This document shows positions 6,716 to 55,959 of a stretch of 64,000 nt of DNA, piece after piece; the stretch's first letter is position 1, and every line of letters starts with the position of its first letter. The notes below the pieces were generated by a model that made no database searches, was not told where the DNA came from, and saw only the letters and a list, made by a program, of their open reading frames with translations. Position numbers and translations under genes: made by a program. The stretch is taken from positions 4,526,001 through 4,590,000 of the forward strand of contig NZ_CP119758.1 in assembly GCF_029323795.1 (NCBI RefSeq), written 5' to 3'. The stretch is from Zobellia alginiliquefaciens. Its GTDB lineage: Bacteria > Bacteroidota > Bacteroidia > Flavobacteriales > Flavobacteriaceae.

Positions 6716-7824
6716 TGATGAAAAAGATTAGTATCATATTAAGTTTAGTTACTTCAGTTATGGCTTTGCAAGGACAAAACACCATTTCCGAAGTAGAAAC
6801 ATATGCTACGGTAGATCAAGCGGTGGGGAATATTGCTTTCACCAATGATGGTGAATTAGTGTATAGTCATCATCCATTTTTTTCTCCGGAAATAAGAGTG
6901 GTAAAGTTTGATAAAAAGGCGAATACAACTTCGCCTTTTCCTAATTTGGAATGGAACACACCACGAGAAACCGATGATAATTATTTAAGTAATGTTCTGG
7001 GAATCCGTAATGATGAAAATGGTGTTATCTGGATGATAGATATGGCGCAGCGTAATAATGTTACGCCAAAAATTGTAGGTTGGAATACAAAAACCGATAA
7101 ATTAGAACGTATATATTACTTGCCAGAGTCAAGTGTACCTTCAATTAACCAACCTAATGATATGGTGGTTGATACCAAACACGGTTATTTTATTATTGCC
7201 GATGAAGGTATTGGTAATGGAGGAGATGGAAGCAAGGCAGCTTTTATCATCGTAGATATGAAAACGGGAAAAACACCTCGGGTTTTGGAGGGTACACGTA
7301 CTACAAAACCAGAAAATACCCCAACGGTTATAAATAATAAGCATCTGGCAGTAAACGGAAAAGATTTGTTGATTGGTAATGACGGAATTACTGCCGATGC
7401 TAATTTTGAATACATTTATTACGGACCGTTAAACGGACCAAAAATCTATCGTATCAAAACAGTTGATTTGGTAAATGAAAAGTTTACAGATGTCGAATTA
7501 GATGCTAAAATTGAAACCTATTCAGACAAACCAAACAATGGAGGAATGTCCATTGATAAAGAAGGAAATATTTACTTAACAGCTTTGGAGACCAAAAGCG
7601 TAGCTGTAGTTTTAGCAAAAGACCGTAGTGTAAAAACTATGGTGCAAGATGAGAATATGGTATGGCCAGATGGTGTTAGTTACAATCACGCAGATGGGTA
7701 CATGTATGTTTCAGCCGCACAAGTAAATAGGGGAGCTCCTTTTAATGATGGTAAAAGTGTAGCGACCAGACCTTTTTATATTTTCAGGTTTAAACCTATT
7801 GTTGAAGGTTTTGCTTTTAGGTAA
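6715..7824 (+). CDS. Secreted MRJP/yellow-family (dopachrome-tautomerase-related) protein
   Basis: A 369-residue secreted six-bladed propeller protein of the major royal jelly/yellow family, with a signal peptide in residues 1-20 (ALQGQ end). Family features include the NDMVVDTKHGYFIIADEG segment (about residues 145-162), NDGITAD in mid-protein, and the C-terminal MVWPDGVSYNHADGYMYV and PFNDGK segments. Bacterial members are annotated as L-dopachrome tautomerase-related, but activity is not proven. The first ATG overlaps the previous stop by one base; an adjacent second Met (6718) could also serve. It is the last gene of the cluster and is followed by a weak hairpin. Confidence 0.85.
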   Translation: MMKKISIILSLVTSVMALQGQNTISEVETYATVDQAVGNIAFTNDGELVYSHHPFFSPEIRVVKFDKKANTTSPFPNLEWNTPRETDDNYLSNVLGIRNDENGVIWMIDMAQRNNVTPKIVGWNTKTDKLERIYYLPESSVPSINQPNDMVVDTKHGYFIIADEGIGNGGDGSKAAFIIVDMKTGKTPRVLEGTRTTKPENTPTVINNKHLAVNGKDLLIGNDGITADANFEYIYYGPLNGPKIYRIKTVDLVNEKFTDVELDAKIETYSDKPNNGGMSIDKEGNIYLTALETKSVAVVLAKDRSVKTMVQDENMVWPDGVSYNHADGYMYVSAAQVNRGAPFNDGKSVATRPFYIFRFKPIVEGFAFR

Positions 7825-7909
7825 TATATAGACAAATAGTATCTAGAGATTGATAAGAGTTAGGTTCTGTTCTTATTAAGCAACATCATTCTAACATGCA
7901 AAACAAATT

Positions 7910-7939
7910 AAAGCATCTTGTTGTAAAACGGGATGCTTT
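7910..7939 (+). terminator. Weak hairpin downstream of the MRJP operon
   Basis: AAAGCATC (7910-7917) pairs perfectly with GATGCTTT (7932-7939) around a 14-nt loop. There is no T tract directly after it, so termination is only possible. Confidence 0.35.
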
Positions 7940-8057
7940 GTCGGTAACCATGTGAGAGTTCTATAATGAATACCTGTAATCGATGGTATTTTTGAAAACC
8001 GTGGAGAATTGTTGCGGAAAGCCTTTCATTATATTAGTAATAACTTATTGAAGGTTT

Positions 8058-8065
8058 TACCTTTG
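8058..8065 (+). promoter_or_regulatory. Candidate -7 element (TACCTTTG) for the DEAH helicase gene
   Basis: TACCTTTG fits TAnnTTTG and lies 21 bases before the ATG at 8087. No clear TTTG is present at the usual distance upstream, so only half of the promoter is supported. Confidence 0.4.
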
Positions 8066-8086
8066 CAGACTTAAGAAAAAGATATC

Positions 8087-9640
8087 ATGCAAGAGCCCCC
8101 TTTTGAAATTCAGGAAAAGAAAACGGATAAAGAACTTTACAGTTACCAGCAAGGTGCTATTAATCAAATATTTGAAAAGTTTGATAATGAAAGAGATGAT
8201 TATCACCTATTATATCAACTACCAACAGGCGGTGGAAAAACCGTAATTTTCTCTGAAATAGTTAGACAATATCTTAAAAACCACTCAAAAAAGGTTTTGG
8301 TAATGACCCATCGTGTAGAGCTCTGTAACCAGACTTCTAAAGTGCTTACTAGTTTTGGGGTAGTCAATAAAGTAGTCAATAGCAAAGCCAATTTAGATGA
8401 CCAAGAACGCTACAATTGTTATGTGGCCATGGTAGAAACATTAAATAATAGGCTTAACGACGGTATATTGGATATCTCGGACGTTGGTTTGGTCATTGTA
8501 GATGAGGCCCATTATAACTCCTTTACAAAACTGTTCAAATTTTTCGAAAACTCTTTTGTCCTTGGGGTTACGGCTACGCCTTTAAGTTCCAATAAGGACT
8601 TGCCAATGAACAGTAACTATGATGAGCTGATTCCAGGAGAATCCATAGAGAATTTAATTGAAAACGACTTTTTGGCCAGGGCAGAAACGTATCAATATGA
8701 TATGGGGTTGACTTCTTTGGAGATAGGTTCCAATGGGGATTATACCGTTAAATCCTCTTCGGACCTGTATACGAGTCCGTCCATGTTAAATAAATTATTG
8801 GAAGCTTATACCGCACATTCCAAAGGAAAAAAAACATTAATATTTAATAATGGTATAGAAACCTCCATTCAGGTATACCATACGTTTAGAAACGCAGGGT
8901 TGCCCGTTATGCATTTGGACAATACGGCTACCAAAAAACAACGGAAACAAATTTTGAAGTGGTTTCATGAAACTCCGGACGCGATACTAACATCCGTAAG
9001 TATTCTAACAACTGGTTTTGACGAACCTACTATCGATACCATTATCCTAAACAGGGCCACTAAATCTTTGACCTTGTACTACCAAATGATTGGTAGGGGT
9101 TCTAGGGTGCTGAACAACAAATCTAAATTTACCGTTATAGATCTTGGAAATAATATCCATCGTTTTGGTCCTTGGGGAGCGGACCTAGACTGGGAGGCTA
9201 TTTTTAAATCTCCGAATTTCTACATAGACCGTATTAAGGACGATGAAGATATTGAAAGCACCTTTAAACATGAGTTGGCCGATGACATTCGTTCGGAATT
9301 TTCAAAATCCGAAAATACTTATCTGGATATTAAGGCTTTGTATAAGGATATCACCTTTTCGGGAGAATCCTCTAAAATGGTATTGGAAAAATCCATTGAA
9401 CAACATGCCTATATCTGTATAGAAAACAGTGAAGATTTGTACGATGCTCTTGCATTGGCAAAATTACTTAAAGAAGATATTGATAACAGGATACAAGTGT
9501 ACAGTAAATGTATAAGTAAGAGTACCTATAATTTTATCAGTTGGTTAAAACTGGATTACCAAAAAAAGCTTAACGCCTATCTTCGGGAAAATTTTGATTC
9601 CGTTTTTGAACAAATTCACGGTCATCCGCCAGAAGATTAA
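8087..9640 (+). CDS. DEAH-box superfamily 2 helicase
   Basis: A 517-residue SF2 ATPase with both RecA-like domains. It shows the Q-type N-terminal YQQGAI motif, Walker A PTGGGKT (46-52), DEAH at 139-142, motif III in GVTATP, and the C-terminal motifs LTTGFDEP and QMIGRGSR. The layout resembles stand-alone helicases of the RecQ/SSL2-like 'type III restriction enzyme, res subunit' annotation. No nuclease, methylase or DNA-binding appendage is visible, and no restriction partner is adjacent. The last 100 residues are helical and of unknown function. It is a single transcription unit with intergenic gaps of 262 and 181 bases, so the exact role in DNA or RNA metabolism is open. Confidence 0.85.
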   Translation: MQEPPFEIQEKKTDKELYSYQQGAINQIFEKFDNERDDYHLLYQLPTGGGKTVIFSEIVRQYLKNHSKKVLVMTHRVELCNQTSKVLTSFGVVNKVVNSKANLDDQERYNCYVAMVETLNNRLNDGILDISDVGLVIVDEAHYNSFTKLFKFFENSFVLGVTATPLSSNKDLPMNSNYDELIPGESIENLIENDFLARAETYQYDMGLTSLEIGSNGDYTVKSSSDLYTSPSMLNKLLEAYTAHSKGKKTLIFNNGIETSIQVYHTFRNAGLPVMHLDNTATKKQRKQILKWFHETPDAILTSVSILTTGFDEPTIDTIILNRATKSLTLYYQMIGRGSRVLNNKSKFTVIDLGNNIHRFGPWGADLDWEAIFKSPNFYIDRIKDDEDIESTFKHELADDIRSEFSKSENTYLDIKALYKDITFSGESSKMVLEKSIEQHAYICIENSEDLYDALALAKLLKEDIDNRIQVYSKCISKSTYNFISWLKLDYQKKLNAYLRENFDSVFEQIHGHPPED

Positions 9641-52452: not shown

Positions 52453-53667
52453 ATGTATAAAATCTTATCGTTAGACGGTGGCGGCAGTTGGGCCATAATT
52501 CAATTGCTTACCCTTAGGGACCGCTACGGAAATATGGATGGCCATGAGGTACTCCGTAAGTTTGACTTGGTGATTGCCAATTCCGGGGGAAGTATTGTTT
52601 TGGCGGCCTTGGCAGAGAATTATTCCATTGATAAAGCCATTAGCCTGTTCAAGGAGAAAGAAAACCGAGAACGCATATTTTGTAAGAATGCCTTCTGGGA
52701 CCGCTTTTTTCCGGTGGATTATCTACGGTTCGTTGGTATTGGCTTTGGACCCAAATATAGCGCAACCAAGAAAAAAGAGGCTTTTGAATACCTGTTTCCC
52801 GAAGTGGATAAGGTGCAGATGAACGAACTGCCAAAAATCATTGGCAAGGAATCGCTGAAAATTGTGGTCTGTACCTATGATGCACTCAACAACCGAGCAA
52901 AGTTTTTTAAATCCTATGCGTTAACGCCTTCGCGATATGACTCGGTGCGATTAACCCAGGCCATTAACGGTTCTTCCAATGCGCCAGTGCAGTATTTTGA
53001 TTTTCCGGCACGGTTTAAAGCGCAGGAAAGCGGGGTGTTTTTTGAACTCTGGGATGGCGCCCTCGGTGGTTTTAACAATCCTATTTTAGCCGGCATCATA
53101 GAGGCCTATAAATTAGGTATTGCCCTAAAGGACATTAAGATAGTCTCCTTGGGGACCAGTAACCCTTTAATGTCTACGGATAAAAAAGAACAGTTCTGGA
53201 ATTGGAAACTGGACACCCTACAATACCGAAGAAAGAAATGGGCTATCCACAAATTTAAACCGCAGCTCAGTTTCTTTATGGAAACCGTTTTTAACCAGGC
53301 CAAGACCATTTTATACCAACCACCGGACACTGCTAATTATATGGCCATGATGTTCTTTAAAGCCGCTACGGGCAAAGATTTGAACGATAGCCTCATACGG
53401 TTATCCCCACTTGTTCATTATGACGACAAACTTGCTACGGATGCCGTACCGCTTATAAAACAACTCTATGAGCTGGATATGGACCTGACCAAAGACGCAC
53501 AGATAGACTTGCTTCTACAATGTTTTGAGGCTTGGAAAGCCGGAAAAATCTATAACCAGCCCGTAGAATTTGAGGTCGAGAGAAACAATGATTTGTTGTT
53601 TATTTCTGGGGATAGGTGGTATCAGGATGGGATGGATAGGTGGGTTAGTTGGGAAATAGGGGAGTAA
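52453..53667 (+). CDS. Patatin-like phospholipase
   Basis: A 404-residue patatin-domain protein. The glycine-rich oxyanion DGGG motif is at 8-11. The nucleophile elbow is ANSGGS, so the catalytic Ser is probably S44 but the first elbow position is Ala instead of Gly. The dyad Asp is D201 (in WDGALGG). A lipid acyl hydrolase activity is inferred. No signal peptide is seen, so it is cytosolic. The C-terminal 100 residues are helical. It is not adjacent to a CD-NTase, so there is no support for a CBASS phospholipase. It is the first gene inside the segment bounded by the 96-bp repeats. Confidence 0.85.
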   Translation: MYKILSLDGGGSWAIIQLLTLRDRYGNMDGHEVLRKFDLVIANSGGSIVLAALAENYSIDKAISLFKEKENRERIFCKNAFWDRFFPVDYLRFVGIGFGPKYSATKKKEAFEYLFPEVDKVQMNELPKIIGKESLKIVVCTYDALNNRAKFFKSYALTPSRYDSVRLTQAINGSSNAPVQYFDFPARFKAQESGVFFELWDGALGGFNNPILAGIIEAYKLGIALKDIKIVSLGTSNPLMSTDKKEQFWNWKLDTLQYRRKKWAIHKFKPQLSFFMETVFNQAKTILYQPPDTANYMAMMFFKAATGKDLNDSLIRLSPLVHYDDKLATDAVPLIKQLYELDMDLTKDAQIDLLLQCFEAWKAGKIYNQPVEFEVERNNDLLFISGDRWYQDGMDRWVSWEIGE

Positions 53668-53826
53668 ATCTAATTTTAACTGAGTTCAGTAATATTTTTT
53701 TTTATGCTGATTACAGAAAACTGTAAAAAAATATGAATTTTAGTTTTTAATTTTATCTCGTAATAATTAAGACTTAAAGTTCTCTTTTTCGTGGTGTTAA
53801 TTGTCTAGAATATATGTCAAATGAGT

Positions 53827-53857
53827 TTTGACAGCTAAGTTTAATATTCTAAATTTG
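53827..53857 (+). promoter_or_regulatory. Promoter of the DUF488-DUF488-dual-OB operon
   Basis: TTTG (53827-53830) is followed 19 nt later by TAAATTTG (53850-53857), a full match to the Bacteroidota consensus. The ATG at 53862 is 4 bases beyond the -7 box, implying a leaderless or near-leaderless transcript. Confidence 0.65.
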
Positions 53858-53861
53858 AGAA

Positions 53862-54407
53862 ATGAGGGAGTCAACAATTTATTCTATCGGTCATGGCAAT
53901 AAGAAATTTGAAGATTTAATAGATGAACTAAAAAAACATCAAATTGAATTTCTCTTAGATGTAAGGTCTAATCCTATGTCTAGGTTTAATTTTCATTTCA
54001 ATAAAACATGGCTTGAGAGAGACTTGCCTGAAAACAATATAACATATGAATTTTTAGGGGAACATCTCGGAGGGCTTCCTAAAGATAAAACATGTTACAC
54101 AGAAGGAAAGGTTGATTATGCCAAAATAAGGACTAAAAAGTTCTTTAAAGAAGGTATTCGTTTATTAGTTGATGCGAACAAAGAAAAAATGCGAATCGCC
54201 TTAATGTGTAGTGAATCGAAACCTGAAGAATGCCATAGGTGCAAGTTAATTGGTCAGGAACTATTAAACCATGAAATATCTGTTCAACATATAACTTCTA
54301 ATGGAATAAAATCTCAGGAGGAAGTTATTAAAATCCTTACTCAAGGATTTGGAACAAATGACCTCTTCGGAGAAAAAGATTTTACTTCGAGAAATACTTA
54401 TTTTTAG
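53862..54407 (+). CDS. DUF488-domain protein
   Basis: A 181-residue DUF488 protein. Conserved features are YSIGHGNKKFEDL (7-19), DVRSNPMSR (33-41), a middle EFLGEHLGG and the C-terminal CSESKPEECHR with C116, C124, H125 and R126. The family has no established reaction; the cysteine/histidine pair suggests a metal- or thiol-dependent enzyme. It starts at the first ATG after its own promoter. It is followed within 4 bases by a second DUF488 gene, then by a dual-OB-like gene, so the three form one operon. The region is visibly more AT-rich than the patatin-like gene upstream. Confidence 0.85.
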   Translation: MRESTIYSIGHGNKKFEDLIDELKKHQIEFLLDVRSNPMSRFNFHFNKTWLERDLPENNITYEFLGEHLGGLPKDKTCYTEGKVDYAKIRTKKFFKEGIRLLVDANKEKMRIALMCSESKPEECHRCKLIGQELLNHEISVQHITSNGIKSQEEVIKILTQGFGTNDLFGEKDFTSRNTYF

Positions 54408-54411
54408 TTCT

Positions 54412-54891
54412 ATGAATTTTTATACTATTGGTGTTTACAATTCAAGTGAGGAAGAATTTTTTGGCAAGTTAATTAATAATAACATTGACACGTTTTGTGA
54501 TATTCGGCAAAGGCGTGGTGTTCGTGGGGCCAAATATTCATTTGTCAATAGCATAAAATTACAGAGAAGGCTAAAAGACTTAAATATTAATTATCAGCAT
54601 ATATTAGAGTTAGCTCCGACAAAAGAAATAAGAGACAAACAAAAAGAAGCTGATATAAAAAATAATATATTTAAAAGAAACCGTGAAGAGTTAGGTCCCG
54701 TTTTCAAGAGTCACTATAAAGCCGAAGTTATAAGTAGATTCAATTTTTTAAAATTTTTTGATTCAATGAAAACTAACAATGCAGAAAATATTGTGCTGTT
54801 TTGTGTTGAAGAACGTCCAAAGGCTTGTCATCGTAGTTTGGTTGCTCAAAAAATAGAAGATGAGTACAAACTTGAATTCATTGATTTGTAG
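54412..54891 (+). CDS. Second DUF488-domain protein
   Basis: About 159 residues from the ATG at 54412, which leaves 4 bases after the first DUF488 stop; an earlier in-frame ATG at 54358 would overlap that gene by 50 bases. It is a diverged paralog of its neighbour: YTIGVYNSSEEEF, D30-IR32 in FCDIRQRRG, and the C-terminal CVEERPKACHR with C131, C139, H140 and R141. The pair retains the same Cys/His/Arg cluster, so both probably share a chemical mechanism, perhaps as a heteromer. Confidence 0.82.
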   Translation: MNFYTIGVYNSSEEEFFGKLINNNIDTFCDIRQRRGVRGAKYSFVNSIKLQRRLKDLNINYQHILELAPTKEIRDKQKEADIKNNIFKRNREELGPVFKSHYKAEVISRFNFLKFFDSMKTNNAENIVLFCVEERPKACHRSLVAQKIEDEYKLEFIDL

Positions 54892-54897
54892 GTAAAT

Positions 54898-55548
54898 ATG
54901 CGTATTTTAATTACTTCAAAAACAAGATATGGCTCAAAACATGCTTGCGTTGGTGGCTTAAATTTGGAAAATAAAAGTTTCGTTAGGCTCCTCAATCCTG
55001 GGGGAATTAAGAAACCTGAAGGATGGTATCAATTTTTGGATACACCATTGAACATTGGTGATATTTGGGATATTGATATTAAAATATCACCTTACACTAA
55101 AGCACCTCATATAGAGGATGTTTTTATTGGTAAAAAAACTAAAATTGAACAAATAGATGACCTTGATTCTTTTATAAAAGAATCAGGGGTTGAAATTTGG
55201 GAAGGTCACATAGATAAATTGTTTGACGGTTGTTTAAGCTGGTTAAAAAATGGTAGTGGGTATTTGGCTGAAACACAAGATGAATTTCCAAAATATAGTG
55301 TTGGTTTTTGGGTTAGTGACAAAGATTTGATATTACATAAGGAAAGATACTTTTATAAATATAAAACTCTAGGAATTTTTGAATCCGAAAAAAGTTTAAA
55401 ATGGGTTGGTTTTGAAAAACCTCCAAAATTAATACCTAAGGGCACTCTAATTAGAGTTTCTTTAGCTAAATGGTGGCCTCCGCGCTATAAACTTGAAAAA
55501 TACAATGCCCCTCACGGTTGTTATCTTCAAATATCCGGTTGGTACTAA
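54898..55548 (+). CDS. Dual-OB-fold-like protein of the DUF488 operon
   Basis: A 216-residue protein that resembles the 'dual OB-containing domain' (DuOB) family: beta-rich N-terminal part (MRILITSKTRYGSKHACVGG, then VRLLNPGG) and a C-terminal part with IRVSLAKWWP and the YLQISGWY end. No active-site motif is evident, so a nucleic-acid-binding or ligand-reading role is inferred from the fold. It begins 6 bases after the second DUF488 gene and is the last gene of the three-gene operon. The family call is moderate; the gene itself is solid. Confidence 0.7.
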   Translation: MRILITSKTRYGSKHACVGGLNLENKSFVRLLNPGGIKKPEGWYQFLDTPLNIGDIWDIDIKISPYTKAPHIEDVFIGKKTKIEQIDDLDSFIKESGVEIWEGHIDKLFDGCLSWLKNGSGYLAETQDEFPKYSVGFWVSDKDLILHKERYFYKYKTLGIFESEKSLKWVGFEKPPKLIPKGTLIRVSLAKWWPPRYKLEKYNAPHGCYLQISGWY

Positions 55549-55959
55549 AAAAGAATAGTAATAATTTTCTTTTATTTATCTGACAATTGATTACGAAGCG
55601 TTATTAAAATATTATGGTATTTTCTTCATGCTGTCAATCTTCCACCACAATTCAATAACTTCCACTGCATCAACCCATTACGTACAACAAGAAGGCAAAA
55701 ACAACAAACCTTGTTTTTGAGGTATTCTTGGCTTTAGGTATACTAAATGTAAGCCTATGCCTTTATTTTTAGATTTACACTACTATTTTTTGCGGTTGGT
55801 TTTCGGGTAAATTTATACCACCGGACTTCTGGGGCATCCCTTCTAAACTATATTCAAAATCAAATTTATACAGCAACATTTGCTTGAAGTTTACGTTAGA
55901 TTAAAGCTCTATTGAAGCATGTACGTAAATTGAAATATCGTCCCCAAAAACAACCTACC
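55549..55959. other. Intergenic region before the T9SS protein gene
   Basis: No terminator with a convincing stem, promoter or repeat was recognised. The AT-rich composition of the DUF488 operon ends within it, and the following gene has ordinary composition. Confidence 0.4.

Follow-up and report, generated by a model that had tools for sequence, protein, structure and literature searches.

A compact cassette of three genes lies at positions 53862 to 55548 of the window, by which we mean the whole 64,000-nucleotide stretch of Zobellia alginiliquefaciens DNA analysed here (contig NZ_CP119758.1, positions 4,526,001 to 4,590,000 of the forward strand), from a genome of 5.07 Mb in a single contig. 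The genes encode two DUF488 proteins, A1 and A2, and a dual-OB (DuOB) protein, A3, which in comparison with relatives appears to be the exchangeable part of the operon. The gaps between them are 4 bases (A1-A2) and 6 bases (A2-A3), exactly the tight operon that a preliminary description, made from the letters of this DNA alone, had given. The cassette and its promoter are laid out as follows, with model confidence expressed as the predicted local distance difference test (pLDDT):

53827 to 53857, plus strand: promoter of the Bacteroidota type, read from the sequence, with TTTG at 53827-53830, 19 nt, TAAATTTG at 53850-53857 and 4 nt to the ATG of A1.
53862 to 54407, plus strand: A1, DUF488 protein of 181 aa (Pfam DUF488, 2.1e-21; PADLOC PDC-M45B, 2.1e-52; model pLDDT 88.6).
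54412 to 54891, plus strand: A2, second DUF488 protein, 159 aa (Pfam DUF488, 1.3e-13; DUF488-N3a, 30.8 bits; PADLOC PDC-M45C, 1.6e-17).
54898 to 55548, plus strand: A3, DuOB protein of 216 aa, the proposed exchangeable target-selecting subunit (Pfam DuOB, 63.3 bits; model pLDDT 93.3; exchange analysis).

This arrangement is widely kept. Searching the DuOB alignment against one genome per species yielded 91 relatives, of which 80 were retained (scanning genome contigs with the A3 protein alone had given no match), and these 80 loci span Bacteroidota, Chloroflexota, Planctomycetota, Verrucomicrobiota and Pseudomonadota. The co-occurrence that the preliminary description had proposed as a check is clear: all three genes are present in 69 of the 80, in the order of the window and on one strand in 68 of these. 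The 11 incomplete loci include some at contig ends (L029, L032, L093), some with no detected A2 (L036, L058, L067, L078, L082, L090) and one with no detected A1 (L066). A separate profile search located DuOB in 11 of 395 genomes of the phylum, with A1- or A2-like genes at most 1.5 kb away in 9 of those 11. The promoter was also correctly described as lying 4 bases from the first ATG, and a TAnnTTTG motif ending no more than 12 nt from the A1 start recurs in 24 of the 74 relatives tested (absent from 50) as against 13 of 1480 shuffles; in 19 of the 24 the distance is again exactly 4 nt.

Comparison at the protein level of the window with 65 of the 80 relatives shows that, within this conserved unit, A3 has been swapped while A1 and A2 stayed together as a pair, the break falling at the start of A3. 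Identities of A1 and A2 rise and fall together (correlation 0.84), and those of A3 follow more weakly (0.61 with A1, 0.60 with A2). Among the 43 pairs of loci with A1+A2 identity of at least 80%, A3 falls below 60% in 25 and stays at or above 60% in 18. For A1, A2 and A3 respectively, the loci L041 and L050 are 98, 96 and 49% identical, L035 and L040 are 95, 93 and 48% identical, and the strain-named isolates L026 and L051 are 85, 78 and 41% identical; the reverse is seen between L044 and L056, at 55, 72 and 81%. It is possible to imagine that A3 simply diverges rapidly in place, but a 98/96% core beside a 49% A3, together with the reverse pair, leads us to reject this. At the nucleotide level, identity between L041 and L050 is 92% ahead of the A3 start and falls to 58% beyond it, and pairs that have the same A3 type (L041/L040, L050/L052) keep up their identity as far as the A3 stop. 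On the well-supported branches of the A1+A2 tree, A3 types I and II each require a minimum of 3 changes and type III a minimum of 2, while types IV to VII (15 rows) each form one clade on that tree, as expected from plain descent. In approximately unbiased (AU) tests, which covered 56 of 66 rows, the A3 data reject the groups L035+L040 (7e-71), L041+L050 (7.5e-6), L042+L044 (0.026) and L026+L027+L051 (0.031), and the data of the A1+A2 core reject a single clade for six of the type I rows (1.4e-5) and likewise for type III (5e-6). The exchange of A3 between near-identical A1-A2 pairs would be new here, being the kind of event that a single sequence cannot reveal.

Two points call for caution here. 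The groups for the AU tests were chosen after the trees had been seen, and only one of the 25 exchange pairs, L026/L051, links two strain-named records. To account for the remaining pairs by chimeric contigs of metagenome-assembled genomes (MAGs), several assemblies would all have to break precisely where A3 starts. The window itself is 81-82% identical to L026 and L051 in A1, 59-61% in A2, and 60 and 41% in A3, and the identity drops inside A2 near 54628; thus, the exchanged part may begin there, within A2.

The place where the cassette sits is itself informative, and two further features define it:

52453 to 53667, plus strand: patatin gene, the genus-conserved left anchor outside the cassette (84-88% identity in 7 of 8 congeners; Pfam Patatin, 1.5e-13).
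53668 to 55837, no strand: variable slot (defence hotspot), from the patatin gene to the right flank common to two congeners, defined by where synteny breaks and resumes and by the slot contents of the congeners.

The patatin gene has no match in the remaining congener, G008. Synteny ends at its end in all seven others and resumes at 55838 in two, and A1 was found in none of the 8. The slots hold an HNH nuclease with part of an HpaII-type restriction endonuclease, a remnant (L114), a KAP NTPase (L115), a C5 methylase with an HpaII restriction endonuclease, that is, HpaII restriction-modification (L116), SIR2 with HerA (L117), and OloA with OloB of Olokun (L118). In L119 the slot (7214-9583) encodes an AT-rich protein of 790 aa with weak matches only, to nucleoside deoxyribosyltransferase and ORC-CDC6-like proteins, which we note as a candidate defence gene. 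L120 lacks an AT-rich insert and has a 422-aa gene directly after the patatin gene; this gene occurs in 5 of 9 genomes and is missing from the window genome, G004, G007 and G008. Clear restriction or defence models are thus matched in 4 of the 6 filled congener slots, and only weak ones in L115 and L119. The ten insert genes scanned have a GC content of 29-35%, compared with 40-44% for the patatin genes, and the cassette is AT-rich to the same effect, as had been observed for it earlier (GC 0.319 for A1, 0.302 for A2 and 0.326 for A3, against 0.438 for the patatin gene and 0.372 for the window). We take the place behind the patatin gene as a defence hotspot of the genus, and this setting, with the absence of A1 from all 8 congeners, argues against ordinary housekeeping genes, an outcome that the preliminary description had allowed for. 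Since the patatin gene is conserved in congeners without the cassette, it serves as an anchor, and we reject it as a fourth component. The protein it encodes is similar to CBASS and anti-phage phospholipases, with scores under the NCBIfam cut-offs, and it is not CBASS by the NCBIfam model CBASS_lipase (61.5 bits against a cut-off of 200).

That the cassette was acquired horizontally, as had been suggested, is well supported by the break of synteny in the congeners and by a block shared between different genera. Cellulophaga L026 and the Maribacter MAG L027 have 1.93 kb in common at 95.6% identity, starting 241 bp upstream of A1 and ending 23 bp beyond the final A3 codon, and no other shared stretch in 20 kb, which argues for a recent transfer of just the cassette unit. 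The inverted repeats that the preliminary description saw as bounding the cassette came out close to chance: the best pair of 20-mers is identical at 17 of 20 positions, a score equalled in 1 of 60 shuffles, and one arm overlaps the end of the patatin gene. Given this weakness, and since the block shared by L026 and L027 ends elsewhere, we reject them as ends of a mobile element. Elsewhere, the three genes stand on the Rhodothermus plasmid pRMAR01, where cas1-cas2, a J-domain gene and cas6 come immediately after them and csx2 and csm6 lie further on, and the cassette also occurs on two contigs of a viral collection. The 137 nearest-neighbour proteins of the 80 loci (1 of 138 was dropped for size) matched 79 PADLOC models at E<=1e-10, compared with 7 for 123 proteins from random regions, a scan that counts models rather than genes and whose control is drawn from Bacteroidota only.

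Some relatives carry the cassette in what looks like an array. In 7 of 71 relatives (L028, L038, L041, L050, L052, L055 and L056), and in 0 of 1420 shuffles, a 9-mer starting with GTT lies 49-59 nt upstream of A1, and its reverse complement follows 11-19 nt beyond the final codon of A3, five of the pairs being exact and two having one mismatch. In L038, L050, L052 and L055 the next feature is an attC-like palindrome roughly 120 nt long, with an arm score of 13 or more; the other three lack it. The Flavobacterium ichthyis locus (L050, 1057-17406) has about nine attC-like palindromes in 20 kb, each 122-125 nt long, and the cassette stands between two of them. Since none of 18 genomes, that of L050 included, reached the cut-off of the integron integrase model TIGR02249 (10 of the 18 had weaker matches at E<=1e-30), we call these arrays integron-like only. 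By eye, no such start is evident in the 110 nt upstream of A1 in the window; the GTT test covered relatives only.

As for the products, the preliminary description's view of A3 as a protein with two OB folds agrees with its match to the Pfam 'Dual OB-containing domain' (PF22557; cut-off 27 bits) over residues 1-215 and with a model that resembles an OB fold, in residues 1-99 at least. The nearest solved folds are HIN-200 DNA-binding domains, telomere end-binding proteins, RecO, RPA and SSB. The best Foldseek rows are HIN-200 tandem-OB DNA sensors (p202, AIM2, IFI16), in which two OB folds bind DNA, although the TM-scores are about 0.3 and there is no evidence of common descent. In four relatives (L062, L081, L083, L093) A3 is fused to a RecQ helicase.

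A1 and A2 both exceed the cut-off of 22.2 bits for Pfam DUF488 (PF04343), at 77.2 and 52.1 bits; A2 also exceeds that of DUF488-N3a (PF22751; 27 bits), for which A1 reaches 16.5 bits. The C...CHR cluster that had been pointed out in both proteins proved invariant, as C116 and C124-H125-R126 among the fixed residues D33, R35, S40, C116, E118, P121, C124, H125 and R126 of A1 (54 rows), and as C131 and C139-H140-R141 among D30, R32, C131, E133, C139, H140 and R141 of A2 (52 rows). The A1 model has a phosphatase/methylase-like fold whose nearest structures are dual-specificity phosphatases and tetrapyrrole/diphthine methylases; phosphatases are its top Foldseek matches, and VIA places it equally close to methylases and phosphatases. 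Cys-phosphatases of the rhodanese-phosphatase superfamily carry the signature C-x5-R, which A1 does not have, its invariant residues being spaced as C116-x9-R126 (54 rows). No credible sequence relatives of A1 or A2 were found in the PDB up to E 10, and RapZ is absent from the best 50 fold matches of A1 in Foldseek and in VIA alike, which excludes nothing. To our knowledge DUF488 has no established reaction, as the preliminary description also held, and the word occurs in no title among the searched papers that contain it. A passage in PMC9503650 proposes that, in viruses, the related DUF4326 domain processes terminal phosphates. By eye, a single frame in L014 (1058-1489) has an A1-like start and an A2-like end, as if a deletion had fused both DUF488 genes.

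How, then, might the cassette work? As the three-gene unit occupies a slot that in congeners holds restriction and defence genes, we consider it probable that it is a self-contained, horizontally moving cassette against phages (or mobile elements), composed of an A1-A2 enzyme pair and a target-selecting A3. The proposed mechanism joins an exchange seen by comparison to a hypothetical chemistry. A1 and A2 would form a paired enzyme with Cys-based active sites of the phosphatase/rhodanese type, and A3, through its tandem OB folds, would bind foreign DNA, exposed single strands or DNA ends. A3 would thereby choose the target and bring or license the enzyme, which may stop the invader by acting on nucleotides or on the phosphate at nucleic-acid ends; in a few lineages, A3's own RecQ helicase would open the DNA. 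If A3 does choose the target, swapping A3 should swap the phage range, and the natural near-identical enzyme pairs with different A3 proteins (L041/L050, L035/L040) offer a direct handle on the function of DUF488. The defence module of the preliminary description stands in part: none of the three outcomes that it named as refuting came about, and co-occurrence, OB folds, hotspot and horizontal acquisition speak for it, while the inverted repeats do not.

Among other accounts of the same genes, a different chemistry fares best, though we think it unlikely: A1-A2 would be a sulfur-transfer pair of the rhodanese type, or another modifying pair, that marks nucleic acid as self or non-self, with A3 as the reader. 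The two cysteines kept in both DUF488 proteins and the closeness of A1 to methylases in VIA would suit such a role, as might the exchange of A3, which recalls that of restriction specificity subunits, but phosphatases lead the Foldseek matches and the conserved unit includes neither a nuclease partner nor a sulfur donor. Slightly less plausible still is a mobile module for DNA repair or stress that cleans ends after damage and has no specific anti-phage role. While the RecQ fusion and the RecO-, RPA- and SSB-like folds of A3 would fit, a hotspot shared with defence systems, a sporadic presence and repeated exchange of A3 are unexpected for repair genes. That the cassette helps mobile elements, by processing DNA ends or by counter-defence for plasmids, integron-like arrays or prophages, is improbable despite its presence on a plasmid, in an integron-like array and on the two viral contigs, since restriction and defence genes are what takes its place in the congener slot and a search of 50,697 phage records gave no match to A3 at E<=1e-3.

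Returning to the reading as an anti-phage cassette, its closest catalogued relative is PADLOC PDC-M45, whose B and C models match A1 and A2. PDC systems come from a preprint (Payne et al., 2024), which PMC12988326 cites with short remarks. No PDC-M45A model matches A3 or, at E<=0.01, any of 56 A3 rows; the model PDLC04656 was not found in G000, and a PDC-M45A model gives a weak match to one DuOB protein, in L018 (16.3 bits). DuOB comes first in L018, L021 and L023, in contrast to the A1-A2-A3 order of the window type. We therefore class the cassette as a DuOB-type sister of PDC-M45 rather than one of its members, and since PADLOC profiles catch both DUF488 genes and none of the 56 A3 proteins scanned, such systems would be detected only partly. 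The set is thus already listed in part: A1 and A2 are modelled as PDC-M45B and C, and the domain of A3 is in Pfam. In L021 and L023 the DUF488 pair directly follows DuOB; L022 and L024, with the same genus code, have DuOB without such a pair within 1.5 kb.

In type I restriction, the target-choosing specificity subunit HsdS is exchanged between otherwise alike operons. The swapping of A3 among similar operons is akin to this as commonly described, except that the cassette has no nuclease or methylase. It is conceivable, though we put it forward tentatively, that the cassette represents a new mechanistic class of prokaryotic immunity, in which an A1-A2 enzyme of Cys-phosphatase fold is aimed by a swappable tandem-OB DNA sensor, A3, in some lineages fused to RecQ. 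Such a class would evolve by replacing entire sensor genes beside a catalytic core that stays constant, in the way type I restriction exchanges HsdS. Among the matches listed, no title or abstract opening pairs DUF488 with DuOB, OB folds or RecQ, in a search that reached neither preprints nor most subscription papers. With what the 2023 work of Burroughs and Aravind reportedly covers, the cassette shares the DUF488 domain, a model similar to phosphatases and diphthine/tetrapyrrole methylases, and a setting among conflict systems; that work may or may not contain DuOB exchange and the RecQ fusion.

Finally, a similar gene of 305-309 aa directly follows the cassette in Yeosuana (L034) and Flavobacterium (L045) and an A3 remnant in Winogradskyella (L064), where a lone 3' piece of A3 adjoins the same downstream gene as the whole Yeosuana cassette. 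This gene marks a second shared insertion place.
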